The notes beneath the pieces are model-generated. The model did no database searches. It was not told the DNA's origin and saw only the letters and a list, made by a program, of their open reading frames with translations. The position numbers and the translations under genes are program-made. Below are positions 2,712-17,724 of a stretch of DNA of 33,928 nucleotides, piece by piece; position 1 is the stretch's first letter; each line of letters starts with the position of its first letter. Origin of the DNA: Hyphomonadaceae bacterium (lineage in GTDB: Bacteria > Pseudomonadota > Alphaproteobacteria > Caulobacterales > Aquidulcibacteraceae); NCBI GenBank assembly GCA_022843225.1, contig JALHOC010000012.1:1-33928 (forward strand), read 5' to 3'.

Positions 2712-4576
2712 GCGCGCCTCCTCTGCTCGCGCTTCACATGCGCCAACAAAGCTGTGAGCGCGCCAGGCGTGACGCCTTCGATGCGTGACGCTTGGCCGAG
2801 CGTGACAGGCCGCGCCGCCATGAGCTTCTCGCGCACTTCATTGGAAAGCCCGCCGACTCCCGCGTAGTCAAGGTCGGGCGAAAGCCGCAAATCCTCGTCG
2901 CGCTTGAAGGCTTCCACATCGAGCGCCTGGCGTTCGAGATAGCCCGCATAGAGCGCGTCGATCTCAAGCTGTTCGCGGGCCTGGCTCGACAATGCGTCCA
3001 GCTCCGGCCACACGGCGCGCAAGCGCTCGAACGTCACGTTCGGATACGCCAGTAATTGCAGCGCATCGCGGCGAACGCCGTCTTGATTGACTTGCAGCCC
3101 GGCCTTCGCGGCCTGGGCCGGTGTCAGCGACAGCGATTGTGCCAACACGCGCGCGGCCTCGATTTCACGCATTTTAGCGGCGAACGCACGCGCCCTCTCC
3201 GCGCCGACGCAGCCAAGCGCAACACCCATTGGCGTGAGGCGCTGGTCGGCGTTGTCCGCGCGCAGCGAGAGCCGATACTCCGCGCGCGACGTGAACATGC
3301 GATAGGGCTCGGTGACGCCGCGCGTGACGAGGTCATCGATCATCACGCCGATGTATCCCTCAGCGCGAGTGATCTCGAACGGCGCCCCCCCGCCCACTGC
3401 GCGCGCGGCGTTGAGCCCGGCGATCAGCCCTTGCGCGGCCGCCTCCTCATAGCCCGTCGTGCCGTTGATCTGGCCAGCGAGATAAAGGCCCTTGATGCGC
3501 TTGGTCTCCAAAGTCGGCATCAGCTCGCGCGGATCGACGTAATCGTACTCGATCGCATAAGCGTGGCGCTTGATGACAACGTTCTCGAGCCCAGCGATCG
3601 TGCGGATAAAGCGCTCTTGCACGTCTTCCGGTAGCGATGTGCTGATGCCGTTTGGATAGACCGTGTCGTCGTCCAGACCTTCGGGTTCGAGGAAGATTTG
3701 ATGCGCGGACTTGTCAGCGAAGCGCACGACCTTGTCTTCGATCGAAGGGCAATAGCGCGGCCCTCGCCCGCTGATCGCGCCGGAATAGACGGCCGACTTC
3801 GAGAGCGAGTCTTCGATGATCTTATGGGTTTCGGCGTTGGTGTAGGTGACGCCGCAGGCGATTTGGGGATTGGTAATCCGCGCGGTCAGAAACGAGAATG
3901 GCGAGGGCTCTTCGTCGCCGTGCTGCAGCTCCAGCGAGGCCCAATCGATCGAGCTGGATTGGAGGCGCGCCGGGGTGCCGGTCTTCAGACGCCCCATTGC
4001 GAAACCCGCGCCGTACAAGCGATCTGAGAGCCCGATCGCAGGGGCCTCGCCGTGACGACCTGCCGGGATGCGCTTGTCGCCGATATGGATGACGCCCTTC
4101 AGGAACGTGCCGGTAGTGAGGACAATACGCGGAGCGCGATATTCGCGGCCGTCGGCGTTGGTGACGCCGACCACGGCGCCTTCCGCCAGCACCAGGTCCT
4201 CGACTGCATCCGCTTCGATTGTCAGCCCCGACTGCGCCGCCAGCGCGGCTTGCATGGCTTCCCGATAGAGCTTGCGGTCCGACTGCGCGCGCGGTCCGCG
4301 GACGGCTGGGCCCTTGGAGCGATTGAGCAGTCTGAACTGGATGCCGCCGGCGTCGGCGACGCGGCCCATGACGCCGTCCAGCGCATCGATCTCACGGACG
4401 AGGTGGCCCTTGCCCAGGCCACCAATGGCCGGGTTGCAGCTCATCTCGCCGATGGTCTCGAGCTTGTGCGTGAGCAGCAGCGTGCGCGCGCCGAGACGCG
4501 CGGCCGCCGCCGCGGCCTCGCAGCCGGCGTGGCCGCCGCCGATGACGATCACGTCGAAGGAGCGCTCTGAACTCAT
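2708..4576 (-). CDS. mnmG: tRNA uridine-5-carboxymethylaminomethyl modification subunit MnmG (GidA)
   Basis: This FAD-dependent subunit works with MnmE to modify the wobble uridine (U34) of certain tRNAs. With the start at 4576 it has 622 residues, close to the family norm, and the FAD-binding GGGHAG falls at residues 13-18 as in homologues. The [12 protein letters not shown] signature is at 47-58. The frame stays open to 4741, and another ATG at 4591 adds five residues, but neither has a clear ribosome binding site, so the start rests on family alignment. The C-terminal MnmE-binding domain ([25 protein letters not shown]) is complete. It heads the operon leading to parAB. Confidence 0.96.
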
Positions 4577-4763
4577 GTGTTGGGACTTCATATAGGAGCG
4601 GGTTTGCCGCGTCACTCGCTCACGCTCATCACCCACCCCCGGATGCGCAACGCGTAGTCCGGGACCATAGACTCCGTCGGGGCGATCGCGCTCCAACGTC
4701 GAGCTGCTGTGTTTGTGGGTCCCGCGCTCGATGCTGCGCATCGCCCCGGGAATGGGTGAGTGT

Positions 4764-4780
4764 GTTGTACGAAGTACGAC
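4764..4780. repeat. Inverted repeat upstream of mnmG
   Basis: GTTGTACGAAGTACGAC has 7-bp arms (one mismatch) around GAA. It lies in the mnmG-mnmE gap about 190 bp upstream of the mnmG start and 16 bp from the nearest parS-like site. It could be an operator or a chance palindrome; no family is assigned. Confidence 0.3.
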
Positions 4781-4795
4781 CGCGAGCGCACCGCT

Positions 4796-4809
4796 GCTTC
4801 ACGCGAAAC
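4796..4809. promoter_or_regulatory. Candidate parS site (variant) in mnmG-mnmE gap
   Basis: GCTTCACGCGAAAC matches the parS core at 12 of 14 positions. It lies 21 bp from the better site at 4831-4844, in non-coding DNA. The closely spaced pair suggests a ParB nucleation point. Confidence 0.55.
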
Positions 4810-4830
4810 TCCCTAATTGCGCCTTCACCA

Positions 4831-4844
4831 GTTTCGCGTGAAAC
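4831..4844. promoter_or_regulatory. ParB-binding site (parS) in mnmG-mnmE gap
   Basis: GTTTCGCGTGAAAC matches GTTTCACGTGAAAC at 13 of 14 positions. It is the best parS match in the window, lies in the 298-bp gap between mnmE and mnmG, and is about 9 kb from the candidate origin. Confidence 0.85.
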
Positions 4845-4874
4845 GCCATGTAAATCGCGACTTTTCGTGCGATC

Positions 4875-6182
4875 TCACTTGCCGATACAGAAGCTCGAAA
4901 AAATCTCATCGAGCAAGTCTTCGACATCGATGCGCCCCGTCAGACGCCCAATCGCATGCGCGGCGACGCGTACGTCCTCGGCAGCCAATTCGGGGCCAGC
5001 GTCGAGCGCTGGGATCGCGCGGAAAAGCGCCGCCCGCGCTTCTTCCACCAAGCGCCGATGCCGCGCCCGCGTCAGCGCGGGCGCCTCTTCGCGACCGAGC
5101 GCTTCGGCGACGCGCGACGCAATTAGGGCTTGGAGGTCTGGGATGCCCTGGCCAGTCTTGGCGGACACCGTCAGCGGCCCGGACTCACCTGTCAGGTCGG
5201 CCTTAGACTTAACGACCAGATCGCTCTCGCTCAGCGCGGCCAGCAGCGCCGGCACGGTAGCGTTGTCGGCTTCTACCAAGCCAATCCGCAAATCTGCTTC
5301 CTCAGCCCGCGCCAGCGCCCGGCGCACACCTTCCGCTTCGATGGCGTCGGCGGCTTCGCGCAAGCCCGCCGTGTCGGCGATCCAGACTGGGTAGCCGGCC
5401 AGGACGAGGCGAACCTCAACCACGTCGCGCGTGGTGCCCGGGATGTCGCTGACAATCGCCGCCTCGCGCTGTGCCAGGGCATTCAGCAGGCTCGACTTGC
5501 CGGCATTGGGCGGGCCGATGATGGCGATGCGAAAGCCGTCGCGAACCCGCTCGCCGCGATGATCAGCTAGATGCGCGCCCATGTCGTCGGCCAGCGCCCG
5601 CAGGATTGGCCCCGCCCGGCGCGACAGCGCGCCCGGCAGGTCCTCATCCGGGAAGTCGATCTCGGCCTCAATCAAGGCGGCCGCCTCGATCAGCTTGCCC
5701 CGCCAGCCTTCATAGAGCGCGCTGAGCGCGCCCTTGGCTTGCCGGAGCGCTTGGCGGCGCTGGCCCTCGGTTTCGGCGTCCACGAGGTCGGCAAGGCCCT
5801 CGGCTTCGGCGAGGTCGAGCTTGCCATTCTCAAAGGCGCGGCGCGTGAATTCGCCAGGCTCCGCTGGCCGAACGCCAGGCTGGCTTAGGCAGGCGTTGAC
5901 CACCGCCTCGATCACCGCCGGCCCGCCATGGACGTGCAGTTCGGCGACATCTTCGCCAGTGAAGCTGGCGGGCGAGGCAAACCAAAGCACCAAGCCTTCA
6001 TCGAGCAACTCGCCGCTCGCTGGATCGCGGAAAGCGCTCAGCGTCGCCAAACGCGGCGGCGGCAAATCCGTAGCTGTCAGCGCGCTAAGAGCCGCGCCAG
6101 CTTGCGGCCCAGACACCCGTATCATTGCAACGCCAGCCCGGCCCGCGCCGGACGCCAACGCCACGATGGTCTCGGGTTTCAT
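4875..6182 (-). CDS. mnmE: tRNA modification GTPase MnmE (TrmE)
   Basis: This is the potassium-activated GTPase partner of MnmG in wobble-uridine modification of tRNA. With the start at 6180-6182 (MKPETIVALAS, the conserved N-terminus) it has 435 residues. The tetrahydrofolate-binding N-domain includes ELHVHGG (81-87) and PAEPGEFTRRAFENGKLDL. The G domain shows G1 GPPNAGKSS (223-231), G2 DIPGTTRD (246-253) and G3 DTAG (270-273). G4 reads SKAD rather than NKxD. The C-terminal FCIGK with its catalytic cysteine is intact. No ribosome binding site is obvious, and a parS-like sequence covers the start codon. The mnmE and mnmG frames are separated by 298 bp. Confidence 0.96.
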   Translation of the reverse strand: MKPETIVALASGAGRAGVAMIRVSGPQAGAALSALTATDLPPPRLATLSAFRDPASGELLDEGLVLWFASPASFTGEDVAELHVHGGPAVIEAVVNACLSQPGVRPAEPGEFTRRAFENGKLDLAEAEGLADLVDAETEGQRRQALRQAKGALSALYEGWRGKLIEAAALIEAEIDFPDEDLPGALSRRAGPILRALADDMGAHLADHRGERVRDGFRIAIIGPPNAGKSSLLNALAQREAAIVSDIPGTTRDVVEVRLVLAGYPVWIADTAGLREAADAIEAEGVRRALARAEEADLRIGLVEADNATVPALLAALSESDLVVKSKADLTGESGPLTVSAKTGQGIPDLQALIASRVAEALGREEAPALTRARHRRLVEEARAALFRAIPALDAGPELAAEDVRVAAHAIGRLTGRIDVEDLLDEIFSSFCIGK

Positions 6183-6189
6183 GTGAAAA
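6176..6189. promoter_or_regulatory. Candidate parS site over the mnmE start codon
   Basis: GTTTCATGTGAAAA matches the parS core at 12 of 14 positions and includes the mnmE start codon. Its sequence is partly constrained by coding, so it is less certain than the intergenic site. Confidence 0.45.
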
Positions 6190-6202
6190 TATCTAAGTGC
6201 GA

Positions 6203-6451
6203 TTAGGGCTTTGCACGTGGAACGGAAGCGCCCGCAGCGCTCGTCATTAGCTTCACGAACGCGTCCTGCGCTTGCGTGCCCACGCTCATCCAAGACTGCA
6301 TCATCGTATCCGGGCTCATCAGCGAGAGATTGGCCTCCATGCGCTTGCCCATCTCAGCCACAAGCTGCTCGTTGATTGGGGTGACGTCCGGCAGGCCCAT
6401 GAAGCGGCGCGCTTCCTCTGGGCTGCATTCGACATTGACGGTGAACTTCAT
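6203..6451 (-). CDS. DUF6489 family protein
   Basis: This is an 82-residue protein beginning MKFTVNVECSPEEARRFMGLPDV, the hallmark of DUF6489, a small family found in alphaproteobacteria. Its function is unknown. The ECSPEEAR/FMGLPD segment is followed by a methionine-rich amphipathic stretch (about residues 30-65: NLSLMSPDTMMQSWMS) that resembles phasin-like helices; this resemblance is an impression, not an assignment. It lies 20 bp upstream of mnmE in the same direction and diverges from the dienelactone hydrolase gene across an 81-bp gap. Confidence 0.8.
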   Translation of the reverse strand: MKFTVNVECSPEEARRFMGLPDVTPINEQLVAEMGKRMEANLSLMSPDTMMQSWMSVGTQAQDAFVKLMTSAAGASVPRAKP

Positions 6452-6532
6452 GGGTCACGAATCCTTCGCGCCAAGCGCGCGCGGGATGTCTATAACGCGG
6501 CCAATCGGATCAAGACAGACGGAGGCTAGGTC

Positions 6533-7222
6533 ATGGGCGAGTGGGTTGAGGTGCAGGGGCCGGATGGCGCCTTCCGGGCGTACGTGGCGCGCCCCGTTGG
6601 CACGCCGAGAGCCGCCGTGGTGGAGATCCAGGAAATCTTCGGCGTCAATTCGGTGATGCGCAAAAAGGCCGACTGGCTGGCGGGCGAAGGCTTCCTCGCC
6701 ATCGCGCCCGATCTCTTCTGGCGCATACAGCCCGGCATCGACATCACCGACCAGAGCGAAGCGGAGTGGGCGCAGGCGTTCGACTATTTCAAGCGCTTCG
6801 ATGTGGATGCGGGCGTCCGCGATATCCAGGCGACGGTCGCGCATGCCCGCTCGATCGGCGCGGCGAACGTCGGCGCAGTCGGCTATTGCCTCGGCGGCCT
6901 GCTGGCCTACCTCACCGCGTGCCGCACCGATTGCGACGCCTGTGTCGGCTATTACGGCGTCAACATTCCCTCGTTCGTCGGCGAAGCCGCCAACATCACG
7001 AAGCCGCTGATGCTGCACATCGCCGGCAAGGACGGCTTTGTGGACGCCGCGGCGCAAGCGGCCATGCAGGCCGGCCTCGGCGGCAATTCCAAAATCACGC
7101 TGCACACCTATGCCGAGCAGGACCACGCGTTCACGCGCGAAGGCGGCAAGCATTATGATGCCGCCGCCGCACAGCTGGCGGATGGCCGCACGGTCGCGTT
7201 CCTGAAGGAGCACCTGGCATGA
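6533..7222 (+). CDS. Dienelactone hydrolase family protein
   Basis: This is a cytoplasmic alpha/beta-hydrolase of 229 residues. The dienelactone hydrolase catalytic triad is visible: Cys119 in GYCLGG, Asp167 in GKDGF and His198 in DHAF. The conserved EIFGVN segment is at residues 34-39. The family opens lactone rings such as dienelactone in chloroaromatic breakdown, but many members have unknown substrates, and no aromatic pathway is present here. The start has GGAGG at 6521-6525. It opens a plus-strand cluster in which each following gene overlaps the last by a few bases, and stands out against the minus-strand genes on both sides. Confidence 0.92.
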   Translation: MGEWVEVQGPDGAFRAYVARPVGTPRAAVVEIQEIFGVNSVMRKKADWLAGEGFLAIAPDLFWRIQPGIDITDQSEAEWAQAFDYFKRFDVDAGVRDIQATVAHARSIGAANVGAVGYCLGGLLAYLTACRTDCDACVGYYGVNIPSFVGEAANITKPLMLHIAGKDGFVDAAAQAAMQAGLGGNSKITLHTYAEQDHAFTREGGKHYDAAAAQLADGRTVAFLKEHLA

Positions 7223-8166
7223 GGCGCGCGCTTCTGATCTGCGCCTGCGCGCTGGCGCTGGCGGCATGCGAGCAGCAAAGCGCCAACCAGCAACCAACCG
7301 AGTCCGCAGCAGCGTATACACTCGCGCCCGCCGATTTGGCGGGCTTCTTCGATTGCCTGCGCGAACAAGGTCAGACCGTCGTCGCAGCGCATCGCGGCGG
7401 GCCGGAGCCGGGCTTCGCCGAGAACGCGATCGAGACCTTCGAGAACACGCTGCGCCACACGCCAGCCATGCTGGAGATCGACATCCGCGAAACCGCAGAT
7501 GGCGTGCTCGTTCTCAAGCACGACGAGGAGCTTGACCGCACAACGACCGCCACGGGGTTGTTGGAAGAGGCCACGCTGGCCGAGTTGCAGGCCTTGCGGC
7601 TGCGAGACGAGAACGGGCAGACGCTCGATGCGCGCATTCCCACACTGCGCGCGGCGCTCGACTGGGCGGCGGGCAAGGCGGTGCTTGAACTCGACGTCAA
7701 GCGCGGCGTCTCGTTCGAAAACGTTGTCGCCGAAGTGCGCGCGGCCAATGCGGCCGATCGCGTGATCTTCATCACGTACAGCGTGCCCGCCGCAATCCGC
7801 GTGCATCGGCTCGCGCCTGAGCTGATGATCTCGACCAGCATCGGAAGCGAGGCCGACCTCGAAGAATTGGAGCGCGCACGCGTCGACCTCACCCGCATCC
7901 TGGCTTGGACCGGCATCGACGAGCCCAACAGCGCGCTCAATGCGGCGCTTGCGCAGCGCGGTGTCGAAGTGCTGTTCGGCACGCTGGGCGGGCGCGAGTC
8001 CTGGGACAATCGCTTCGCCGCTTCCGGCGATGATCAATATGCGGAGTTTGCCGAGACGGGTATCCATTTGATCGCTACCGATCGGCCCGCAGCAGCCGCG
8101 CGCGATCTCGATGCGGCCGATGGCGTGGAGGGCTTTGGCGCCAAGCAATGCGAGGCGGCGCAGTGA
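7219..8166 (+). CDS. Glycerophosphodiester phosphodiesterase family lipoprotein
   Basis: This is a predicted exported lipoprotein of 315 residues that hydrolyses glycerophosphodiesters to an alcohol and glycerol-3-phosphate. The N-terminus is a short signal with lipobox LAAC (Cys17 after cleavage). GDPD motifs are present: HRGG at 58-61, ENAIETF, EIDI (86-89, metal ligands Glu/Asp) and KHDEELDRTT (100-109). The C-terminal part is consistent with a TIM barrel. Its ATG overlaps the stop of the hydrolase gene (ATGA). It would act at the cell envelope, perhaps on deacylated phospholipids; the physiological substrate is not shown by the sequence. Confidence 0.92.
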   Translation: MRRALLICACALALAACEQQSANQQPTESAAAYTLAPADLAGFFDCLREQGQTVVAAHRGGPEPGFAENAIETFENTLRHTPAMLEIDIRETADGVLVLKHDEELDRTTTATGLLEEATLAELQALRLRDENGQTLDARIPTLRAALDWAAGKAVLELDVKRGVSFENVVAEVRAANAADRVIFITYSVPAAIRVHRLAPELMISTSIGSEADLEELERARVDLTRILAWTGIDEPNSALNAALAQRGVEVLFGTLGGRESWDNRFAASGDDQYAEFAETGIHLIATDRPAAAARDLDAADGVEGFGAKQCEAAQ

Positions 8167-9134
8167 AAGCCATCCGCATTACACAGCATGGCGGGCCAGA
8201 GGCGATGGCGCTCGCCGACATCGCCGAGCCTGCGCCGGGGCCGCTCGAGATCCGGGTGCGCCATCACGCGATCGGCGTGAACTTCATCGACACCTATCAC
8301 CGCGCGGGCTCGTACAAGATCGCGTTGCCGAGCGGATTGGGGCTGGAAGCAGCGGGCGTCGTTGATGCGATTGGCGAAGGCGTGACGCGCTTCAAGCTCG
8401 GTGATCGCGCTGCATATTGCTCGGGTCCGATCGGCGCCTATGCGGAAACGAATGTGCTTCCCGAGGGCCGCGCCGTGCGCTTACCCGATGCAATCTCGTA
8501 CGACATCGCGGCGGCCTCGATGCTCAAAGGCATGACCTCGCGTTATCTTCTGAGAAAGACGTTTCGCGTGGAACCAGGCCATTGGGTCCTGATCCATGCA
8601 GCGGCCGGAGGCGTCGGACAAATTCTTGTACAATGGGCCAAGCACCTTGGCGCGCATGTGATTGCGACGGCCGGCAGCGAGGAGAAGGCTGGGATCGCGA
8701 AGGCGCTTGGCGCCGACCATACGCTCGTCGTTCGCGGCGAGGACGACTTCGCGCCGCGCATGCGCGCGATCGTGAAAGAGGGCGCGCATGTCGTCTATGA
8801 CGGCGTTGGCGCCGATACCTGGCGCGGCTCGCTCGATAGCCTGCGCCCCTTGGGCATGATGGTGAGCTACGGCAATGCCTCTGGCCCGCCGCCGGCGATT
8901 GCGCCCGGCGTACTCTCCGCGAAGGGGTCGCTGTTCCTGACTCGCCCCGGCCTAGCGCACTACACGGCGACCACCCAGCAGCTCGACGAAACCGCTGCGG
9001 ATTTATTCGATGTGCTGGAGACGGGCGCTGTGAAGATCGCGCGGCCAAAGCCCTACGCGTTGGCCGACGCCGCGCAAGCGCACCGCGATCTCGAAGCGCG
9101 CAAGACAACTGGAAGCTTGGTGCTGACGCCGTGA
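8163..9134 (+). CDS. NADPH:quinone oxidoreductase (zeta-crystallin-like MDR family)
   Basis: This is a 323-residue zinc-independent medium-chain dehydrogenase that reduces quinones with NADPH. The conserved VNFIDTYHRAG (39-49) and the nucleotide-binding AAAGGVG (146-152) are typical of QOR. There are no zinc-ligand cysteine clusters. GTG at 8163 overlaps the preceding TGA (GTGA) and puts the N-terminus at KAIRITQHGGPE, as in E. coli Qor; an in-frame ATG at 8148 would add five residues but lies inside the previous gene. A parS-like sequence is inside this gene (8561-8574). The name qorA is likely but not certain. Confidence 0.92.
   Translation: MKAIRITQHGGPEAMALADIAEPAPGPLEIRVRHHAIGVNFIDTYHRAGSYKIALPSGLGLEAAGVVDAIGEGVTRFKLGDRAAYCSGPIGAYAETNVLPEGRAVRLPDAISYDIAAASMLKGMTSRYLLRKTFRVEPGHWVLIHAAAGGVGQILVQWAKHLGAHVIATAGSEEKAGIAKALGADHTLVVRGEDDFAPRMRAIVKEGAHVVYDGVGADTWRGSLDSLRPLGMMVSYGNASGPPPAIAPGVLSAKGSLFLTRPGLAHYTATTQQLDETAADLFDVLETGAVKIARPKPYALADAAQAHRDLEARKTTGSLVLTP
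8561..8574. promoter_or_regulatory. Candidate parS site inside the quinone oxidoreductase gene
   Basis: GTTTCGCGTGGAAC matches the parS core at 12 of 14 positions. It is the candidate nearest the origin (about 5.3 kb). Its bases are also read as codons (TFRVE), so it may be coincidental. Confidence 0.35.
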
Positions 9135-9652
9135 GCGTGAGGCAAGCCATCGGCGCGGTTCTCAGCATTGGCGCGGTAATTGTCGCCGCGGCGCTTATCC
9201 TGGTGGTCGCAATTGTCGCCTATCTCTCAGTGGGCCCGCCTCAGGTCGACGTTGCGCGGCGAGCGTTTCCGTCGGGCGTGGAGCTTGGCGAAAGCCTTCA
9301 CCAGGAAAACGTCAGCGGTTTTCGTGAGGGCTGCGTTCTCGTGATCTTTCGGTTGAGCGACGAGTCCGCGCGAAGTCTGCAGGCCGACGCCGCAAGCTAT
9401 TTGCATGGGTGAGGAGACACAACGGGACGAGGGCAAACCTTGTCCTCGTGGAGCGAGACGCCGTTGAGGAGCCACGAAGGCATCAACGGTAGCGGCGCGT
9501 GGGCGTGCAGCAATAGATTGCATCCGCTTGTGCGTCGCCCGCACGAGGCGGCGGGCCGTCCCGGCGCATACTACGCAACGTTCGCACACGGCGAGGGTCT
9601 GCTTGTGCTAATCCCATCCGAGCGCGTCGCGGTGTTTTTATATTTCGGCTGA
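9131..9652 (+). pseudogene. Small membrane-anchored protein gene interrupted by one in-frame TGA
   Basis: GTG at 9131 overlaps the quinone oxidoreductase stop. The frame encodes an N-terminal membrane segment (about residues 7-33), then a domain with FREGCVLVIFRLSDES, and meets TGA at 9410-9412 after 93 residues. The same frame continues for 79 more codons to TGA at 9650-9652, with protein-like sequence (WSETPL, GAYYATFAHGEGLLVLIPSERVAVFLYFG). A single base change (TGG to TGA) would explain the break. The product would be about 173 residues with a cytoplasmic tail, or a periplasmic domain if the N-terminus is an anchor. I do not recognise the family. Sequencing error, a recent pseudogene or readthrough are all possible; a real second start at TTG 9440 is less likely. 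Confidence 0.6.
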
Positions 9653-9654
9653 GC

Positions 9655-9697
9655 CTGCTGGACACCAGCAGAAAAAGCGCTGCCTCGCTTCGAGCGC
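9655..9697 (-). terminator. Possible weak terminator downstream of rho
   Basis: On the minus strand a short stem (GCGCT at 9693-9697 pairing with AGCGC at 9677-9681) is followed by five T residues (9672-9676). Next comes a 7-bp hairpin CTGCTGG-ACA-CCAGCAG (9655-9671). The first stem is short, so confidence is low. The 7-bp hairpin is followed by A, not T, on the plus strand, so it is not a good terminator for the plus-strand cluster. Confidence 0.3.
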
Positions 9698-9698
9698 C

Positions 9699-10991
9699 CT
9701 ACGTATTCATGCTCTGGAAGAAGTCGTCATTGTTCTTCGAGCCCTTGAGCTTATCCAGCAGGAATTCGATCGCGTCCTGCGTGCCCATCGGCGAAAGAAT
9801 GCGGCGCAGCACGTACATCTTCTGCAGGTGCTCTTTCGGGGTGATCAGCTCATCCTTCCGGGTGCCCGATTTGAGCACATCGATGGCTGGGAAGATGCGG
9901 CGGTCGGCAACCTTGCGGTCCAGCTGAAGCTCGCTGTTACCCGTGCCCTTGAATTCTTCGAAGATCACTTCGTCCATGCGCGAACCAGTGTCGATGAGCG
10001 CCGTGGCTATGATTGTAAGCGAGCCGCCTTCCTCGAGATTACGCGCCGCGCCGAAGAAACGCTTCGGGCGCTGCAGCGCGTTGGCGTCGACGCCGCCCGT
10101 CAGCACCTTGCCGGAAGAGGGCACGGTGGCATTGTAGGCGCGACCGAGGCGCGTGATGGAGTCGAGCAGAATGACGACATCCTTGCCGTGCTCAGCGAGG
10201 CGCTTGGCTTTCTCGATCACCATCTCCGCCACAGCCACGTGGCGCGTCGCCGGCTCGTCGAAGGTGGAGGAAACCACCTCGCCCTTTACCGTCCGGCGCA
10301 TGTCGGTGACTTCTTCGGGGCGTTCGTCGATCAGCAGAACCATCAAGAACACTTCCGGGTGGTTGGCTTCAATCGCCTTGGCGATGTTCTGCAGAATGAC
10401 GGTTTTACCCGTGCGCGGCTGCGCGACGATCAATGAGCGCTGGCCTTTGCCGATCGGGGCGACGATGTCGATGATGCGGCCCGTCTTGTCTTTGATGGTC
10501 GGGTCTTCGAGTTCCATCTTCAGCCGCTCGGTCGGATAGAGCGGGGTCAGGTTATCGAAGTGGACCTTGTGGCGGACCTTATCCGGATCTTCGAAATTGA
10601 CCGAGTTGACCCTGGTCAGCGCGAAATAGCGTTCGCCATCTTTCGGCGCCTTGATCTGGCCTTCCACCGTATCGCCGGTGCGGAGGCCGAATTTCCGGAT
10701 CTGCTGTGGCGAGATGTAGATGTCGTCCGGGCCCGGCAAATAGCTCGATTGCGGCGAGCGGAGAAAGCCGAAGCCGTCCGGTAGAATTTCGCATACGCCG
10801 GCGCCGCCGATCTCGACGCCGCGTTCGGCGACCGATTTCAGGATCGCGAACAACATGTCCTGGGTGCGCAGTGTGTTTGCGCCCTCAATCTCGAGCGATT
10901 CCGCGAGCGCGAGGATTTCGGTGGGGGGTTTGCGTTTGAGCTCTTGCAGCGTCAGCTGGGTGAGCCCTTCGAGTGCTTGTTCTTGTGTCAT
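9699..10991 (-). CDS. rho: Transcription termination factor Rho
   Basis: This is a hexameric RNA-dependent ATPase/helicase that terminates transcription. With the start at 10989-10991 it has 430 residues, typical for the family; the frame is open further upstream but that part has no Rho similarity. The N-terminal domain ([24 protein letters not shown]) and the RNA-binding cold-shock-like domain ([31 protein letters not shown]) precede the ATPase domain with its P-loop (AQPRTGKT), [13 protein letters not shown] and the Q/R-loop region ([13 protein letters not shown]). It follows hemJ after about 210 bp of leader, long enough for separate regulation, although no structure was recognised in it. 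Confidence 0.98.
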
Positions 10992-11201
10992 GGTTTGTCT
11001 CTGAGGAGAGGTCCGCGCGCGCAAGCTCGTTGGGCGGGACCGTCTGGAAATGTGAAAGCCGGCGGAAAGGAGGGGAGTTTCGGCGCCGCCGCCGCGATGC
11101 GCGCCGAGCCCGCGCTGGGACTCGTCGCACGCCGGAGGGACACCATAAGTGCTCGCAGCCGTCAAGCACCCCCGCGCACGAGGCGAGGCCGCAAGACCCT
11201 T

Positions 11202-11672
11202 CTAAGGCTCAACCGTTGCCAAGAGGACAACGGCGATGGCGATCAGGAAGGGGATCTCGCTGAACCGGCGCCAGAAGGTTTCGGAGCGGCGGCGCTCGCC
11301 CACAGCGAGCCGGCGGCCCTCAGCAATTAGGTAGCCGTGATAGCCAGACAAGCCCAACACCAGCAGGAGCTTGCCCCAGAACCAGTGCGGCACCCCAACG
11401 AGGATCTCGCCCAAGGGGCGGCCCCAATCGCCGGTGATGTAGGTTCCGAACAGGAAAATACCGAAGGCCCAGGCCAGGATCAGGCTCGGCGTCAAGATGA
11501 TCAGCCGCAGGCTGCGCGCGGCCTTCAGCATCGCGGCATCGAGTTCGCCGCCAGGCTGGCCCGATGTCGCGTAGGCGTAAAAGCGCGGCAGCATCAACAG
11601 CCCCGCAACCCAGGCGATCACCGCGATGATATGTAGCCCGCGGGCCAGATCATAACCGATCACGTGATCCAT
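11202..11672 (-). CDS. hemJ: Protoporphyrinogen IX oxidase HemJ
   Basis: This is a membrane protein of 156 residues in the HemJ/UPF0093 family that oxidises protoporphyrinogen IX to protoporphyrin IX, the step before ferrochelatase. Conserved features are RGLHIIAVIAWVAGLLMLPRF near the N-terminus (heme-ligand histidine at about residue 14) and GKLLLVLGLSGYHGYL near residue 100. About four transmembrane helices can be seen. It is 19 bp downstream of hemH, which makes the product of HemJ into heme, so the hemE-hemH-hemJ order forms a functional heme operon in the minus direction. Confidence 0.93.
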   Translation of the reverse strand: MDHVIGYDLARGLHIIAVIAWVAGLLMLPRFYAYATSGQPGGELDAAMLKAARSLRLIILTPSLILAWAFGIFLFGTYITGDWGRPLGEILVGVPHWFWGKLLLVLGLSGYHGYLIAEGRRLAVGERRRSETFWRRFSEIPFLIAIAVVLLATVEP

Positions 11673-11691
11673 CGAACTCAGCCCCCGAAGT

Positions 11692-12777
11692 TCAGTTCCG
11701 TGCGCCGCAAAGCTTCATCGAGGCTGGACAGATTCGCCCGCCCGAGTCCGGCTCAACCTTGCCTGGCGCGGTGAGCGCACGCTCCACAAAATCGGCCAGC
11801 GCGTCAATGAAGGCCGGCTCCGCGCCCAAAGCTGGTGCGCGCAAATAATATGGCAAGCCGAGCTCTTGAGCGCGTTGCGCGTACTCAATGTCGAGCTCGA
11901 CAAGGGTCTCAATGTGCTCCGAGACAAACGCGATCGGAGATACGATGACGCCCTGGCGGTCCGTGCTGGCGCGGTGAAGTTCTTCCTCGGTTGAAGGGCC
12001 AATCCACTTCAACGGCCCAACGCGCGACTGATAGCAGGTCACCGCATCCCAGCCCGACGGCAAGAGCCGCCGCACCGCCGCGACGGTCTGCTCCACTTGC
12101 CATTGATACGGATCGCCGCGCTCGATCACACTCTGCGGGAGGCCATGCGCGGAGAACAACACGCGTGGCGTTGGCGGCGAGCCGCCTTGGCGCCATGCAG
12201 TGAGAATTGTATCGGCATGCGCTTGCGCGAATTTCTGGCCCGATGGGTAACAACAGATCGTGGAAGAGGGCAGGCGCGAGGCCTTGGCCCAAGCGGCTAA
12301 AGATGACGCCGATGTCGTGGATGAGAATTGGGGATAGAGCGGCAGGAGCACAGCATCGGTCGCACCCCAAGCTTCCGCGGCCTTGGCCGCGTCCTTCACG
12401 AACGGCTTCCAATAACTCATGGCTGGGAAGCACTTGAAGGTCACGTTGCTAACGCGCTGCGCGATGGCGGCTTCGAGCGCGTCGGCCTGCTTCTGCGTCT
12501 CCGGCAGAATGGGCGAGCTGCCACCCATGAAGGCGTAGTTCGCTTTCGCGGATTTCTCGCGCGTTCTAGAAATCAGCTGCGCGATCAGAAATCGAAAGGG
12601 CTGCGGCGCGCTAATGATTGCCTTGTCGTTGAACAGGTTGAACAGGAAGGGGCGCACTGCCTTCGGAGAATCTGGTCCGCCCAGATTGAACAAGATTATG
12701 GCCACGCGACGCGATGTCATGGCCCGTAAACTGCGGCGCGCATCGGACGTTGGTTCCTCAACAGGGAGAGCGCTCAT
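11692..12777 (-). CDS. hemH: Ferrochelatase HemH
   Basis: This inserts ferrous iron into protoporphyrin IX, the last step of heme synthesis. It has 361 residues with NLGGPDSP near the N-terminus, YAFMGGSSPI, the active-site FSAHGLP (His211) and SPIAFVSEHIETLVELD (about 280-296). The ATG at 12777 overlaps the hemE stop (ATGA); an internal ATG at 12720 would remove 19 poorly conserved residues. Cysteines 175 and 176 and a C-terminal pair at 350 and 357 (C-x6-C) suggest a [2Fe-2S] cluster, known for Caulobacter ferrochelatase, but that is inferred from spacing only. Confidence 0.96.
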   Translation of the reverse strand: MSALPVEEPTSDARRSLRAMTSRRVAIILFNLGGPDSPKAVRPFLFNLFNDKAIISAPQPFRFLIAQLISRTREKSAKANYAFMGGSSPILPETQKQADALEAAIAQRVSNVTFKCFPAMSYWKPFVKDAAKAAEAWGATDAVLLPLYPQFSSTTSASSLAAWAKASRLPSSTICCYPSGQKFAQAHADTILTAWRQGGSPPTPRVLFSAHGLPQSVIERGDPYQWQVEQTVAAVRRLLPSGWDAVTCYQSRVGPLKWIGPSTEEELHRASTDRQGVIVSPIAFVSEHIETLVELDIEYAQRAQELGLPYYLRAPALGAEPAFIDALADFVERALTAPGKVEPDSGGRICPASMKLCGARN

Positions 12778-13805
12778 GCCTTGCCCTTCACCAATTCAAC
12801 GAGGCGCGCGACGTTTTCAGGCGTCGCTTGGGGCGTGATGCCATGGCCGAGATTAAAGATGTGCGGGCTATCCTTGAACCGCGCGATCGTTTCAAGCACG
12901 CCGTGCTCCAAAGCCGCGCCACCCACGACCAGCAATTGCGGGTCTAGATTGCCTTGCACCGCCATTGTCTGCGGTAGGTCGAGACGCGAGGAGACACTGG
13001 TGTCGAGCCCGATCGCGTCAATTCCCGTGACATTGGCGTAGGTCGAGATCGCCACGCCCGCGCCGCGCGGAAAGCCAATGATGGGCGCGGTCACGCCAAG
13101 CGCGCGTAGGCGTTTCACGAGTTTCTGAGTCGGCTTGATGATGAGGCGTTCGAACAGGGGAGGAGGCAGCCCCTCAGCCCAGCTCTCAAAGATTTGCACA
13201 CAATCAGCGCCGGCCTTGACCTGCTCGGCCAAATGCCGCGCACTCATTTCGACAAGCACATCCAGGAGTGCATCCACATCGGCCGGGCGCTCATATACAG
13301 CGCGACGCGCGCGATCCTTTTCGCCGCCTTCGCCCTGCAGCATGTAGGTCGCAACCGTCCAGGGCGCACCGCAAAAGCCGATCAGCGCGATAGTCTTATC
13401 CAGCCCACCCTTGATCCGCTCCACCGCTTCATAGACCGGGGCAAGCCGTTGCAGCCCGCGCTCCGGATCGTCGAAAACCCATTTGTCCTCGCCAATCAGA
13501 GGATTGAGCCGCGGTCCTTCGCCTTCGACGAACCAGACCTTCCGCCCAAGAGCATCGGGCACGACCAAGATGTCAGAAAACAGAATGGCCGCATCCAAGG
13601 GAAAGCGCCGCAAGGGCTGCATGACAGCCTCGGTCGCGAGAGCGGGCGAATAACAAAACTCCATGAAACTCTTCGATCGGGTGCGCAGCTCCCGGTATTC
13701 CGGGAGATAGCGACCCGCTTGGCGCATGATCCATAGCGGAGGGCTCTCAAGCCGCTCGCCGTTCAAGACACGCATAAGAGCGGGAAGGTTTTCCCGACCG
13801 ACCAT
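12774..13805 (-). CDS. hemE: Uroporphyrinogen decarboxylase HemE
   Basis: This removes four carboxyl groups from uroporphyrinogen III to give coproporphyrinogen III in heme synthesis. It has 343 residues, normal for the family. The signature PPLWIMRQAGRYLPEYRELR is near residues 22-41 and the second signature GFCGAPWTVATYML lies near 140. The ATG at 13803-13805 has AGAGGAAG just upstream. The gene is the first on the minus side of the 337-bp candidate origin; hemE flanks the origin in Caulobacter, Sinorhizobium and Rickettsia. It overlaps hemH by four bases, so translation is probably coupled. Confidence 0.98.
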   Translation of the reverse strand: MVGRENLPALMRVLNGERLESPPLWIMRQAGRYLPEYRELRTRSKSFMEFCYSPALATEAVMQPLRRFPLDAAILFSDILVVPDALGRKVWFVEGEGPRLNPLIGEDKWVFDDPERGLQRLAPVYEAVERIKGGLDKTIALIGFCGAPWTVATYMLQGEGGEKDRARRAVYERPADVDALLDVLVEMSARHLAEQVKAGADCVQIFESWAEGLPPPLFERLIIKPTQKLVKRLRALGVTAPIIGFPRGAGVAISTYANVTGIDAIGLDTSVSSRLDLPQTMAVQGNLDPQLLVVGGAALEHGVLETIARFKDSPHIFNLGHGITPQATPENVARLVELVKGKA

Positions 13806-14142
13806 GACTTCCTCTAAACCTAAGATTCTGAACCCTGATTAGGGAGGACTCGTTGTTGTGGCGATACGCAAACCGGGAGAAAAAGGATTTCCACAGCTTG
13901 TCCCCAGACTTGCTCTAGCCGACCCAGGCCAAAAACGCAGTCCACAAACCGATTTTCTGGGCGCGTGACGATGACGCGATTCCTTTTGAAGCAGCTGTGC
14001 GCTCTGTGAATAGCGCGGGGAGGAATCGCCCTGGGGGACCAATGACCCTGGCGTCTTTCCCTCAACGCGCGGGTAAACCGGCTTTGCGCCTATTGCCATC
14101 AACAGCTTGTCCACAAGGGCGGCTCAGCTGATATGAGGACCC
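13806..14142. other. Probable chromosomal replication origin (oriC)
   Basis: This is a 337-bp gene-free region between divergent hemE and ppsR, the position of the origin in Caulobacter and Rickettsia prowazekii. DnaA-box-like sequences (consensus TTATNCACA) are TTGTCCACA (14107-14115, one mismatch), CTATTCACA on the minus strand (14005-14013, one mismatch), ATTTCCACA (13887-13895), TTGTCCCCA (13898-13906) and CAGTCCACA (13938-13946); the last three are weaker. An IHF-like site overlaps the best box. Three GANTC (CcrM-type methylation) sites are at 13824, 13978 and 14023. No TTAA pairs typical of CtrA were found. Short open frames on the minus strand here look spurious. Location is stronger evidence than the motifs. 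Confidence 0.7.
14097..14109 (+). promoter_or_regulatory. IHF-like site in the candidate origin
   Basis: CATCAACAGCTTG matches WATCAANNNNTTR at all fixed positions except the first. It overlaps the best DnaA-like box at 14107-14115. IHF binding within the Caulobacter origin is established; its use here is inference. Confidence 0.4.
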
Positions 14143-14970
14143 ATGCGCGGCAGCATAGGCGTTTATTTCAATGTCCACTTGGTGTCGGACTCGACAGGGG
14201 AGACCCTGGCCGGCGTCATGCGCGCCACCTGCGCCCAGTTTGATAACATCATCCCGATTGAGCATTCCTACTTTCTGGTGCGGTCCACACGTCAGCTTGA
14301 GCGGGTGCTGCGCGAGATCGAGGACGCCCCAGGCGTCGTGATGTTCACGCTCTCCAATCTGGAGCATCGCGGCCAGCTAGAAGCGCGGTGCAAGGCGCTC
14401 GGCATGCCCTGTGTGGCGGTTTTGGACCCAGTGCTTTCGGTAACCTCACGGTATCTGGGGCAGGAGTTGAACCACAGAGTAGGGGCTTCGCGGCGCCTCA
14501 ACGCCGAATATTTCAAGCGCATCGATGCGCTCGACTTCGCGATGGATCACGACGACGGCCAGCAAGTGGTCGAATTGCTCGATGCTGATGTCATCCTAGT
14601 CGGCGTGAGTCGGACCTCGAAAACGCCGACCAGTGTCTATCTGGCGCATCGGGGGGTGAAAGCAGCGAACGTCCCCATGGTGCCTGGCGTCCCCTTGCCG
14701 GCGGAATTGTTCACCAAGGATAGGCCGGTTGTCGTCGGGCTGTTAATCTCGGCGGACCGTCTGATTCACATTAGGCGCAATCGTTTGATGGCGATGAAGG
14801 AGACGCGGGCGGGCGAGTATACCGATGAGGATGCCGTGCGCCGTGAGGTCATGGACGCCCAGCGTCTCTTTGAGCGTGAAGGTTGGCCAACCATCGATGT
14901 GTCGCGCCGGTCGATTGAGGAAACGGCTGCAGCCGTTCTCAATCTGTTGGCGGAGCATCGTGGCGGATGA
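14143..14970 (+). CDS. ppsR: Pyruvate, phosphate dikinase / PEP synthase regulatory protein (DUF299)
   Basis: This is a bifunctional ADP/Pi-dependent kinase and pyrophosphorylase that switches pyruvate phosphate dikinase or PEP synthase by (de)phosphorylating a threonine. It has 275 residues, the usual length. The N-terminal VHLVSDSTGETL (11-22) and the P-loop GVSRTSKTPTS (154-164) are diagnostic. GAGG lies just upstream of the ATG at 14143. It is the first gene on the plus side of the candidate origin, the position of RP001 in Rickettsia and of its counterparts in other alphaproteobacteria. The target enzyme is not in this window, so whether it acts on PPDK or PEP synthase cannot be told. 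Confidence 0.95.
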   Translation: MRGSIGVYFNVHLVSDSTGETLAGVMRATCAQFDNIIPIEHSYFLVRSTRQLERVLREIEDAPGVVMFTLSNLEHRGQLEARCKALGMPCVAVLDPVLSVTSRYLGQELNHRVGASRRLNAEYFKRIDALDFAMDHDDGQQVVELLDADVILVGVSRTSKTPTSVYLAHRGVKAANVPMVPGVPLPAELFTKDRPVVVGLLISADRLIHIRRNRLMAMKETRAGEYTDEDAVRREVMDAQRLFEREGWPTIDVSRRSIEETAAAVLNLLAEHRGG

Positions 14971-15557
14971 GCCTGATCCTTGCCTCAGGCAGTGCGTCGC
15001 GCCGACGCATGCTCGAAGCCGCAGGCTTGGTGTTCGAGATCGATGTGCCGCGTGTTGACGAAGAGGCGGCGAAGGCCAGCTTGCGCGCCGCGGGGCTTGC
15101 CCCGCGTGAGCAGGCGGACGCGTTGGCGGAACTCAAAGCGCTCTCTGTTTCACGGACCCGGCAGGGGTTCGTCATCGGCGGCGACCAGATGCTGGCCATC
15201 GAGGGTGAAACGCTGGACAAGCCTAAGGACATCGCCGAAGCGCGGAAACATCTGATGCGTTTGCGCGGGAAATCGCACCATTTGCTTTGTGCGGCCGTGG
15301 TCGCCAGCGAAGGCGCGATCATTTGGCGTCACGTCGATACGCCGCGGTTGAAGATGCGCGCGTTCTCCGACGCGTTTCTCGATGACTATCTCGCACGCAC
15401 TGGCGGCGACGTTCTCTCGTCCGTTGGCGCGTATCAGCTCGAAGGTCTCGGCGCGCAATTGTTCGAGCGCGTTGAGGGTGATTACTTCTCCGTGCTCGGC
15501 TTGCCGCTCTTGCCGCTCTTGGCATTTCTTCGCGAGCACGGGATCGTGCCGAGATGA
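14967..15557 (+). CDS. maf: Maf family nucleotide pyrophosphatase
   Basis: This is a 196-residue Maf/HAM1-fold protein, probably a house-cleaning nucleoside triphosphate pyrophosphatase. The N-terminal LASGSASRRRML replaces the commoner SxSPRR form. GGDQML and DKPKD carry the predicted catalytic and substrate residues, followed by GGDVLSSVGAYQLEGLGAQLFERVEGDYFSVLGLPLLPLL. It overlaps ppsR by four bases (ATGA) and aroE follows with the same overlap. The 3' part contains a small direct repeat (TTGCCGCTC twice from about 15501) encoding LPLLPLL. Exact nucleotide specificity cannot be read from the sequence. Confidence 0.92.
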   Translation: MSLILASGSASRRRMLEAAGLVFEIDVPRVDEEAAKASLRAAGLAPREQADALAELKALSVSRTRQGFVIGGDQMLAIEGETLDKPKDIAEARKHLMRLRGKSHHLLCAAVVASEGAIIWRHVDTPRLKMRAFSDAFLDDYLARTGGDVLSSVGAYQLEGLGAQLFERVEGDYFSVLGLPLLPLLAFLREHGIVPR

Positions 15558-16378
15558 ACATCTCCTCGACCACCCAGGTCTATGGCGTCATCGGGAGCCC
15601 CGTGCGGCATTCGCTGTCGCCCATCCTGCACAACGCCTGGATCGCCGATCATGGGCTTAATGCTGTCTATGTGGCGCTCGAACTCAAGAACGAGAACCCG
15701 ATCGCGGCCCTGCGCGCCCTCGGGTCCTTCGGTGTGCGCGGCGCCAATGTCACCGTGCCCTACAAAGAAGCCGCCGCGCGCGCGGCAGGCGCGACGGACC
15801 TTGCGGTGGCGAATGTCTTGCGCTGGGACGAAATGGGCGGGCAGTCTGCCTTCAACACGGACGGCTTGGGTTTTGTGCACGCGCTGTCCGAGAGCCAGCC
15901 GGATTGGCGCGCGCGTGTGAAACGCGTGCTTGTCATCGGCGCAGGCGGCGCGGGGCAGGGCATTGCGCGGGCCCTGAGCCCGCATGCCGATACCCTTCAT
16001 ATCGCCAATCGCACGCCGGCTCGCGCCGACGAAACCGCAGCCCTGATCCCCAATGGTCGCGCGCTGAGATGGGAAGATCTGGAGCGCGGCTTTGGCGGCG
16101 CTGATCTGATTGTACAAACCACAAGCCTCGGCATGACGGGGCAGCCCGACCAAGCATGGCCGGTGGAGATGTGCCGTGACGGCGCGATCATTGCCGACAT
16201 TGTCTATCGCCCACTTGAAACGCCGTTGCTTGCCGCCGCGCGCTCACGCGGCCTCGCGACCATGGATGGCCTCGGCATGTTGATCCATCAGGCCGCGCTC
16301 TCGTTCGAGCTTTGGTTTGGGATTATGCCAGATGTCGCAAAGGCGCGCGCGCGGTTGATGGCGGCGCTCGCGGCATGA
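15554..16378 (+). CDS. aroE: Shikimate dehydrogenase AroE
   Basis: This reduces 3-dehydroshikimate to shikimate with NADPH in aromatic amino acid synthesis. It has 274 residues. The substrate-binding [12 protein letters not shown] (12-23), the catalytic lysine in [10 protein letters not shown] (about 63-72) and NTDGLGF (about 97-103) are intact. The nucleotide-binding site reads [10 protein letters not shown]. The C-terminal [18 protein letters not shown] is typical. It is flanked by four-base overlaps with maf and coaE, indicating one translational unit. No anomalies are seen. Confidence 0.97.
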
Positions 16379-16968
16379 AAATCATCGGACTCACCGGGTC
16401 GATCGGCATGGGGAAGTCGACGGTGGCGCGGATGTTCGCGGAAGAGGGCGCGCCTTTTTTTGATTCCGACGCGGCCGTGCATGCCTTGTATGCGCCTGGT
16501 GGTGCGGGGGTGACGGCTGTCGAAGCAGCGTTTCCCGGTGTTGCGCGCGCTGGCGGCATTGACCGCGCCCTACTGTCGCCGCGCGTTGTCAGCGATGCTG
16601 AGGCGATGCGGCGACTTGAAAGCATCGTGCACCCCCTTGTGCGCCAAGCGCAGCTCGATTTCCTCGCCGCCCAGGCGGCGGAGGGCGCGGCTTTTGCCGT
16701 GCTCGATATTCCGCTCCTGCTTGAAGGCGGCAACGCGCAGGGCGTGGACGCGGTCGTTGTGGTTTCGGCTCCCGCCGATGTGCAGCGCGCGCGCGTTTTG
16801 GCCCGGCCGGGCATGAGCGCGGAGAAGTTCGAGGCAATTCTGGCGCGGCAAATGCCAGATGCCGAGAAGCGCGCGCGCGCGGACTTCGTCATCGACACGG
16901 GGTGTAGCCTGGAGGAAACGCGCGCCCAGGTTCGCGCGACGCTAGACGCCCTGCGCGAACAGGACTAG
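16375..16968 (+). CDS. coaE: Dephospho-CoA kinase CoaE
   Basis: This phosphorylates the 3' hydroxyl of dephospho-CoA, the last step of coenzyme A synthesis. It has 197 residues starting [16 protein letters not shown], with the P-loop at residues 8-16. [14 protein letters not shown], a conserved ESIVHPLVR segment and [10 protein letters not shown] follow. The ATG at 16375 overlaps the aroE stop (ATGA); the frame is open upstream to 16312 but that part has no CoaE similarity. It precedes dnaQ by nine bases. The aroE-coaE-dnaQ order is a conserved alphaproteobacterial arrangement. Confidence 0.96.
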
Positions 16969-16977
16969 CGCGGTCAC

Positions 16978-17724
16978 ATGCGTGAAATCGTTTTCGATAC
17001 GGAAACCACCGGCGTTTTTCCGGACCATCAAGAGCCAGAACTGCGTGACCGCATCGTCGAGATCGGCTGTGTCGAGATCGTGAATCTGGAGCGCACGGGC
17101 CGCGAATTTCACGTCTATCTCAACCCCGAACGCTCGGTGCCGGAGGAGGTGGTGCGCGTTCACGGGCTCACCCGCGACTTTCTGATCCGCCACAAACGGT
17201 TCGCCGAAATCGTGGACGACTTCTTAGAGTTTATCGGCGACGCGCCGATGGTGGCGCACAATGCCTCGTTCGACCAAGGCTTCCTCAATGCCGAGATGCG
17301 CCGCATCGGTCGGGGCGAGGCGCCGGGGGCGCGCTTCGTCGATACGCTGATGATCGCGCGCAAGCGCTTTCCCGGCGCGTCCTGCTCGCTGGATGCCTTG
17401 GCGAAAAGATTCCAGCTCGATCGCTACGGTTTTGATCTCGCCGCCCGCAAGGGCCCGGGCGGCCACGGCGCCTTGATCGATGCGCGGATACTGGCGGAAG
17501 TTTATCTGCAGCTTAAAGGCGGGCGCGAGCAGCGCTTGGCGTTCGAAGCCGATGCTGCCGACGCGCGCGGCGATGCGTCGGCGCCGCGCACCATCCAGTT
17601 CGCGCAACGCCAACCTAGGGCGAGCCCGCTTCCTTCGCGGATGACGCCGCAAGAAGAAGCGGATCACGCCGCGTTTGTAGCGGGACTTGGCCAGAACGCG
17701 CTGTGGCTGAAGGTCGGGTCTTGA
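16978..17724 (+). CDS. dnaQ: DNA polymerase III epsilon subunit DnaQ (3'-5' proofreading exonuclease)
   Basis: This DEDDh exonuclease proofreads the replicative polymerase. It has 248 residues. Exo I is DTETTG (Asp7, Glu9), Exo II is HNASFDQGFL (Asp99) and Exo III is HGALIDA (His163, Asp168). The C-terminal part (about 180-248) carries a low-complexity linker ending PLPSRMTPQEEADHAAFVAGLG, the region expected to contact the alpha subunit. It follows coaE by nine bases and faces secB across a four-base gap. The ribosome binding site is weak. Confidence 0.96.
   Translation: MREIVFDTETTGVFPDHQEPELRDRIVEIGCVEIVNLERTGREFHVYLNPERSVPEEVVRVHGLTRDFLIRHKRFAEIVDDFLEFIGDAPMVAHNASFDQGFLNAEMRRIGRGEAPGARFVDTLMIARKRFPGASCSLDALAKRFQLDRYGFDLAARKGPGGHGALIDARILAEVYLQLKGGREQRLAFEADAADARGDASAPRTIQFAQRQPRASPLPSRMTPQEEADHAAFVAGLGQNALWLKVGS

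Follow-up and report, generated by a model that had tools for sequence, protein, structure and literature searches.

The DNA analysed here (the window) is the whole of contig C12, 33,928 bases of a 2.86 Mb draft genome in 117 contigs, and its source genus is probably Terricaulis (Caulobacterales). In the available part of PMC12700997, the Terricaulis clade is placed as sister to Hyphomonadaceae, and a title cited there describes the type species as prosthecate and budding. In the window, hemE and a ppsR-type gene for a kinase/pyrophosphorylase diverge from a spacer that lies exactly where an earlier reading of the same DNA (the sequence-only reading) had placed a candidate replication origin (Table 1). 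On the hemE side the order outward is hemE, hemH, a HemJ-like gene, rho, a zinc alcohol dehydrogenase (ADH), GDPD and a dienelactone hydrolase (DLH), followed by trmE, gidA, a DUF3088 gene, gidB, parA and parB; on the ppsR side it is ppsR, maf, aroE, coaE, dnaQ, secB and a Tim44-like gene. That most genes point outward, with ppsR-maf-aroE-coaE-dnaQ on one side and hemE-hemH-hemJ-rho on the other, also held on inspection. The same order is found in the single-contig relatives G002, G003 and G022, to which 34 window ORFs were matched; one of these is unmatched in all three and two more are unmatched in one or two. The statement that the spacer is the only gene-free interval above 300 bp fails, as the two ORFs tested in the 564-bp gap separating the convergent ADH and rho genes (9135–9698) are without a match in any of 11 relatives. 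A search of a plasmid collection with the junction DNA returned 17 records, all partial matches with at most 21% covered at 60–90% identity. We take the window's ppsR (PF03618) to be the COG1806 gene that borders Cori, the origin of Caulobacter crescentus. COG1806 (DUF299) is given as the Cori boundary gene in the part of PMC1914354 available.

Table 1. Genes and sequence elements of the window (positions count from its first base).
Feature	Coordinates	Strand	Remark
parB	3–830	−	cut by contig end
parA	919–1707	−	
parS-like site	2315–2328		
gidA/mnmG	2708–4741	−	
KOPS switch interval of relatives, if one shared point	4180–7400		+6.4 kb (G003) to +9.6 kb (G002), converted coordinates
Pair of parS-like sites	4796–4844		starts 4796, 4831
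trmE/mnmE	4875–6293	−	
Pair of parS-like sites	6176–6223		starts 6176, 6210
parS-like site	8561–8574		
hemH, hemJ-like (UPF0093), rho	9699–12777	−	
hemE, uroporphyrinogen decarboxylase	12774–13805	−	TIGR01464
hemE-ppsR spacer, candidate oriC	13806–14142		AT 0.445 vs 0.360 for window
Fourth GANTC site	13824–13828		
Conserved block GACTCGTTGTTG, holds GANTC site	13847–13858	+	exact in 25/29 genus spacers
Tandem DnaA-box-like words ATTTCCACA-GC-TTGTCCCCA	13887–13906	+	inside conserved alignment block
Weak box-like GTCCACA	13940–13946	+	outside conserved column blocks of 29-spacer alignment
Paired GANTC element GATTC-N39-GGAATC	13978–14027		39-bp spacing in 28/29 spacers, 38 in one
CTATTCACA box within paired GANTC element	14005–14013	−	
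DnaA-box-like TTGTCCACA adjoining ppsR	14107–14115	+	TTGTCCACA in 23/29 spacers
ppsR-type kinase/pyrophosphorylase	14143–14970	+	PF03618
maf, aroE, coaE, dnaQ	14967–17724	+	

The DnaA-box-like words are present where the sequence-only reading had put them: TTGTCCACA at 14107 (+), CTATTCACA at 14005 (−) and ATTTCCACA at 13887 (+), each one mismatch from TTWTNCACA, together with TTGTCCCCA at 13898 and GTCCACA at 13940. Its three GANTC sites are in fact four (13824, 13847, 13978 and 14023). Its IHF-like site stands as a one-mismatch match at 14097, and an exact site occurs in just 1 of 29 genus spacers. Over the whole window, matches to TTWTNCACA with at most one mismatch are not above chance (16 against 15.3 expected); three of the 16 sit in the spacer, which is 1% of the window, and within the window two DnaA boxes in 350 bp are seen at the spacer only. 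The AT content of the spacer is above the average of the window, which serves as the reference here in place of the genome: 136 of 33,592 windows of 337 bp equal or exceed it. A hairpin at the paired GANTC element had a z-score of −1.39 and is not claimed.

Comparison across the genus reveals which of these elements are retained. Among the 30 genomes searched, our own included, hemE is found in all, and in 29 of the 30 loci it diverges from ppsR across a gap of 321–368 bp; the 30th locus (L015, 2495 bases examined) is without ppsR. In a wider set of named loci, a ppsR match adjoins hemE in 59 of 80. Three loci named Caulobacteraceae (L035, L038 and L039; hemE 65–67% identical) have no ppsR adjoining hemE, and in a presumed Caulobacteraceae genome, G223, whose hemE is 66% identical to that of the window, hemE and ppsR lie about 1.6 Mb apart in contig coordinates (C1:1694942 and C1:66147); transfer of hemE, or its relocation away from the origin, is possible in these four. 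An alignment of the 29 spacers shows conserved islands amid diverged sequence, namely GACTCGTTGTTG, a block with tandem CCACA and TCC-CA, the GANTC pair and AACAgCTTGTCCACA adjoining ppsR. We compared word counts with dinucleotide shuffles of the 29 spacers: TTGTCCACA has 24 matches in 23 spacers (shuffle mean 0.0, maximum 1), TCCACA 67 matches in 28 (mean 4.7, maximum 13) and GANTC 125 matches in all 29 (mean 44, maximum 57). Thus, it is because the boxes are conserved genus-wide that their cluster stands above chance across the 29 spacers; most are sub-consensus, and the canonical TTATNCACA was found in none of the 29. The 39-bp spacing of GATTC-N39-GGAATCG is unchanged in 28 spacers and is N38 in L014, and GATTC-N39-GGAATC occurs at a single place in our own genome. 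Within the stretches examined, the spacer is strictly the densest 350-bp window of DnaA boxes in 7 of 12 genomes (our own included), ties in G003 and G026, and is beaten in G002, G014 and G021.

Our genome encodes a CcrM-like RAMA domain (RAMA is the C-terminal domain of CcrM); a control search for RAMA across 14 genomes was positive in Caulobacter only. Full CtrA sites (TTAA-N7-TTAA) are found in 1 of the 29 genus spacers and not in our own, and TTAACCAT in 4 of 29. The IHF consensus is matched exactly in one spacer of 29, with one mismatch in our own, and with at most one mismatch in 17 or 20 of 29, depending on the consensus used and counted without a shuffle control.

Below, distances in kb are positive on the hemE/parS side (right) and negative on the ppsR side (left) of the spacer. 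Judged from sequence, the region would carry a ParABS system near the candidate oriC, with parA, parB and several parS-like sites. Each of the 12 genomes has six such sites (at most two mismatches) at +4.7 to +12.4 kb, with close pairs at two of the places, and further matches are scattered, including one near −2.5 kb in 7 of the 12. The six sites in our own window account for 12 of 13 strand-wise matches, compared with 1.9 expected from shuffles. In three Terricaulis relatives the starts of parA and hemE are 12.2–12.8 kb apart. The word CCCTGCCC recurs close to the rho start (+2720 to +2790 from hemE) in nine of the 12 genomes, and in five of these nine it falls outside called genes.

To place the locus on a chromosome, we sampled GC skew in G002, the one genome used for this whole-chromosome comparison, taking 20 kb in every 60 kb over roughly the first 3.62 of 3.73 Mb, with one stretch sampled finely. 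The minimum of these samples falls near 2,043 kb; hemE is about 33 kb away from it and dnaA 97 kb. Around the junction we examined 12 genomes of the 30 (11 relatives and our own contig) from −40 to +58 kb or over shorter ranges. The local minimum lies on the hemE/parS side in all 12, at +5.7 to +36.8 kb; in G003 the minimum at +14.5 kb is local, and skew across all 200 kb is lowest at the left edge, −104 kb. The expectation that the skew minimum would sit at the spacer was therefore not borne out in any of the 12, each being displaced by 5.7–36.8 kb to the parS side. The sequence-only reading had counted a minimum elsewhere on the chromosome against an origin here, and such a minimum is found on a small scale only, about 33 kb from hemE in the 3.73 Mb of G002. 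Raw GC skew was set aside as a locator, with minima that scatter and are confounded by gene strand.

Because gene strand affects GC skew, we classed genes by GC and AT skew at third codon positions, and also used strand-biased 7-mers without GGG, CCC, AGG or CCT, which are free of GGGNAGGG (KOPS). Mean GC3 skew is about 0.00 for leading genes (273) and about −0.22 for lagging genes (293), with a cross-validated accuracy of 0.83. By this classing, composition is of the left-arm type in ppsR (12/12), aroE (12/12) and maf (11/12), and of the right-arm type in hemE (12/12), hemH (9/12), hemJ (8/12) and parA (12/12). Right of the spacer, rho (right-arm in 0/12), ADH (left in 10/12) and GDPD (left in 9/12) are nonetheless left-arm-like, trmE (7/12) and gidA (5/12) are split, and secB, which lies on the ppsR side, comes out as right-arm in 7/12. 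A classing row for 'orf7', a shadow frame of DLH, was left out; DLH itself is unclassed. The low GC3 skew of rho is partly gene-specific, being below that of hemE in 32 of 40 outgroup loci with high GC3 (out of 64 with both genes). The KOPS-free 7-mers have a plus fraction of 0.345 at −2.5 to 0 kb, 0.679 at 0 to 1.5 kb and 0.540 at 1.5 to 3 kb, fall to 0.287 at 3 to 5 kb, and rise slowly to 0.50 at 12 to 16 kb and 0.54 beyond, so that the right-arm level is not steady until about 16 kb. Gene-corrected and KOPS-free signals thus switch at the spacer and revert over 3–8 kb, and raw GC skew and KOPS switch elsewhere; the polarity signals disagree on the exact pivot.

KOPS are strongly polar in the genus. 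In the G002 samples they number 3 plus and 67 minus on the left arm (240 kb to 2,010 kb), 6 and 4 between 2,010 and 2,043 kb, and 35 and 2 on the right arm beyond 2,043 kb. Pooled over the 12 genomes, they number 2 plus and 127 minus from −40 to 0 kb, 0 and 20 from 0 to 3 kb, 0 and 1 from 3 to 6.5 kb, none from 6.5 to 9.5 kb, 25 and 0 from 9.5 to 16 kb, and 67 and 3 from 9.5 to 58 kb. In 30 genus loci, the 12 genomes among them, the 2.5 kb nearest the spacer on the side of hemE contain 0 plus and 27 minus KOPS, the 27 being 17 raw positions of which some are probably the same aligned site; because orthologous sites repeat, KOPS counts are not independent events. The last minus and first plus KOPS lie at +2.7 and +9.6 kb in G002, +6.4 and +9.8 kb in G003, and +2.8 and +12.3 kb in G022, which would put a switch common to them at +6.4 to +9.6 kb; in G002 two more minus KOPS follow, at +16.8 kb and +108 kb. 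With parS-like sites from +4.7 to +12.4 kb, the flip would fall inside the conserved parS cluster. Our own window has no KOPS from about 2445 to 15960, and the switch is thus not located there. The 25 most polar octamers, mostly KOPS-like, are in plus orientation in 0 of 43 cases at 0 to 1.5 kb, 5 of 33 at 3 to 5 kb, 9 of 17 at 8 to 9.6 kb and 39 of 40 at 9.6 to 12 kb, and KOPS-like 7-mers have plus fractions of 0.40 at 0 to 1.5 kb, 0.23–0.28 at 1.5 to 6.5 kb and 0.72 at 8 to 9.6 kb. In KOPS and KOPS-like octamers, the ppsR-side polarity accordingly continues past the spacer without a switch there. The FtsK of G002 has a gamma domain, the domain with which Escherichia coli FtsK reads KOPS in the available part of PMC2680272.

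An explanation of the minus KOPS by codon usage only was rejected: the 279 kb of right-arm plus-strand genes at 16–300 kb contain 2 minus KOPS and the 48 kb of hemE-rho contain 15, and in Sinorhizobium meliloti KOPS pointing away from the origin prevail in genes of both kinds, leading (22 to 3) as well as lagging (19 to 4). KOPS are polar in the sampled arms of S. meliloti (CP090106.1; 26 plus and 6 minus, and 7 plus and 26 minus). That record (L263, L264 and L266), 3.72 Mb and titled S. meliloti Ak57 plasmid pSymB, contains dnaA, hemE and parAB, has the hemE/kinase-pyrophosphorylase junction at its start, and looks like a mislabelled chromosome. Twelve Rhizobiales loci chosen among the 80 named ones show a change in general strand-biased 7-mers at the spacer, from 0.38 to 0.52, 0.60, 0.49 and 0.65 in successive bins, and S. 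meliloti alone has no clear change there. On the hemE side of S. meliloti and these 12 loci, KOPS number 4 plus and 12 minus at 0–4.4 kb, 4 and 7 at 4.4–7 kb, and 1 and 2 beyond, and no flip at parS was seen. Fifteen Caulobacteraceae-like loci, a few of them labelled only alphaproteobacterium or Caulobacterales, have KOPS mostly plus on both sides (12 plus and 4 minus left of hemE, 18 and 8 right of it), so the switch is not on the parS side there; these counts speak against a general rule that KOPS always switch at parS. Rhizobiales thus share the first half of the pattern, the ppsR-side KOPS polarity continuing past the spacer, and the Caulobacteraceae-like loci do not. In 24 kb of G087, KOPS form palindromic pairs.

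A tentative explanation, which we hold to be possible and rather less than probable, is that KOPS of the genus are arranged around the parS centromere and not around oriC, with a KOPS axis from parS to dif and a mutational bias from oriC to the terminus. A KOPS axis centred on parS would be novel and is unproven; no paper on KOPS at parS versus oriC was among the listed hits of a literature search restricted to open-licence papers. Rhizobiales may share the displacement. If the arrangement is real, the oriC-parS stretch carries the replication polarity of one arm and the segregation polarity of the other, so that two selective forces would be separable on one chromosome, and the offset would offer a natural experiment on whether it is replication or segregation that the FtsK-read polar sequences follow.

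The same signals could instead mean that replication starts 5–10 kb hemE-ward, in rho-trmE-gidA among the parS sites, leaving the spacer as a conserved double promoter regulated by DnaA and CcrM. For such a start speak the flip in KOPS orientation between the last minus (+2.7 to +6.4 kb) and first plus sites (+9.6 to +12.3 kb), the pooled counts of 0/20 and 25/0 on its two sides in 12 genomes, the change of polar octamers over +5 to +9.6 kb, the left-arm-like rho, ADH and GDPD, and the GC-skew minima on the hemE side. We nevertheless judge it unlikely: hemE, hemH and hemJ are right-arm-like in 12, 9 and 8 of 12 genomes, the KOPS-free words jump at the spacer, the skew of rho is partly its own, ADH, GDPD, DLH, trmE and gidA largely occupy the stretch, and it is at the spacer only that our window has two DnaA boxes within 350 bp. 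A divergent promoter region whose boxes are regulatory, origin function having moved elsewhere, would account for the few good boxes in our single spacer, and spacers of divergent genes are expected to retain some conserved sites; the conserved junction, the boxes together with the paired GANTC sites, and a switch of composition right across the spacer make this very unlikely.

An origin adjoining dnaA, as in many other bacteria, is highly improbable. In favour, boxes in the sampled 1.6 Mb of G002 cluster most densely at 2,139,458, ahead of the dnaA domain match (2,140,299). Against it, the G002 skew minimum is 97 kb from dnaA and nearer hemE, and the Hyphomonas and Caulobacter origins are near hemE in the parts of the literature available. 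In G002, dnaA lies 130 kb from hemE; for G003 and G022 the distances are 115 and 224 kb, provided that their contigs are circular. DnaA boxes ahead of dnaA fit autoregulation in other bacteria, and autoregulation is possible for the cluster at G002:C1:2139458, three box-like words in 350 bp, with the dnaA domain match some 0.84 kb further on.

We are thus fairly confident that the spacer at 13806–14142 is the chromosomal replication origin, oriC. The proposal of the sequence-only reading gains support from synteny with Cori, from box-like and GANTC elements retained genus-wide, and from the composition switch between ppsR (left-arm in 12/12) and hemE (right-arm in 12/12); we accept it because Cori lies at the same junction and the replication peak of Hyphomonas lies near hemE. 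From these sequence features we infer DnaA binding, melting, methylation control, ParB binding and replication start at the spacer, which could proceed as follows. DnaA would load on few, mostly sub-consensus boxes, namely the tandem at 13887–13906, the opposite-strand box at 14005 and the best, TTGTCCACA, at 14107; the AT-richer DNA on the hemE side of the spacer would melt, and forks would start here and travel outward along both gene clusters. A CcrM-type enzyme would set the methylation state of the four GANTC sites, two of them in a rigid inverted pair, which may report that state after fork passage, and ParB on the parS cluster, 5–11.5 kb off, would separate the sister origins. A likely origin is thereby supplied for a little-studied genus.

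The spacer very probably joins the hemE-type alphaproteobacterial origins, with a GANTC geometry of its own and without the CtrA array of Caulobacter. Cori was located experimentally at the same hemE/COG1806 junction, as the available part of PMC1914354 reports, and likewise has DnaA-box-like sites, a CcrM-like RAMA domain being encoded in both genomes. PMC1914354, as far as available, gives it five CtrA sites, five DnaA boxes and one IHF site, whereas our spacer has no full CtrA site and no exact IHF site; the same partial source describes CtrA sites as few or absent in some relatives. Our spacer has the GANTC-N39-GANTC element. The CtrA array and the exact IHF site would accordingly be dispensable features of Cori, and the boxes and GANTC sites those that persist. 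In Hyphomonas neptunium, the marker-frequency maximum is near hemE, and GC skew, dnaA and DnaA sites gave no clear answer, as in our genus (PMC6650430, available part); parAB lies about 7 kb from hemE there, compared with 12.2–12.8 kb for parA in the Terricaulis relatives, and CtrA binds beside the origin (PMC7200025, available part). The origins of Rickettsia prowazekii and Wolbachia, predicted from boxes and synteny in the accessible text of PMC1914354, also have hemE as a boundary gene; unlike ours, these genomes are AT-rich, and in Wolbachia the second boundary gene differs. For the polarity signals, the nearest likeness is Pseudomonas aeruginosa, in which the GC-skew switch mirrors KOPS and coincides with dif instead of the replication terminus (PMC6199493, available part). 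KOPS are also described as switching at dif in the portion available of PMC13342612. In P. aeruginosa the segregation axis thus stands apart from the replication axis, with the displacement at the terminus; in Terricaulis it would be at the origin end.
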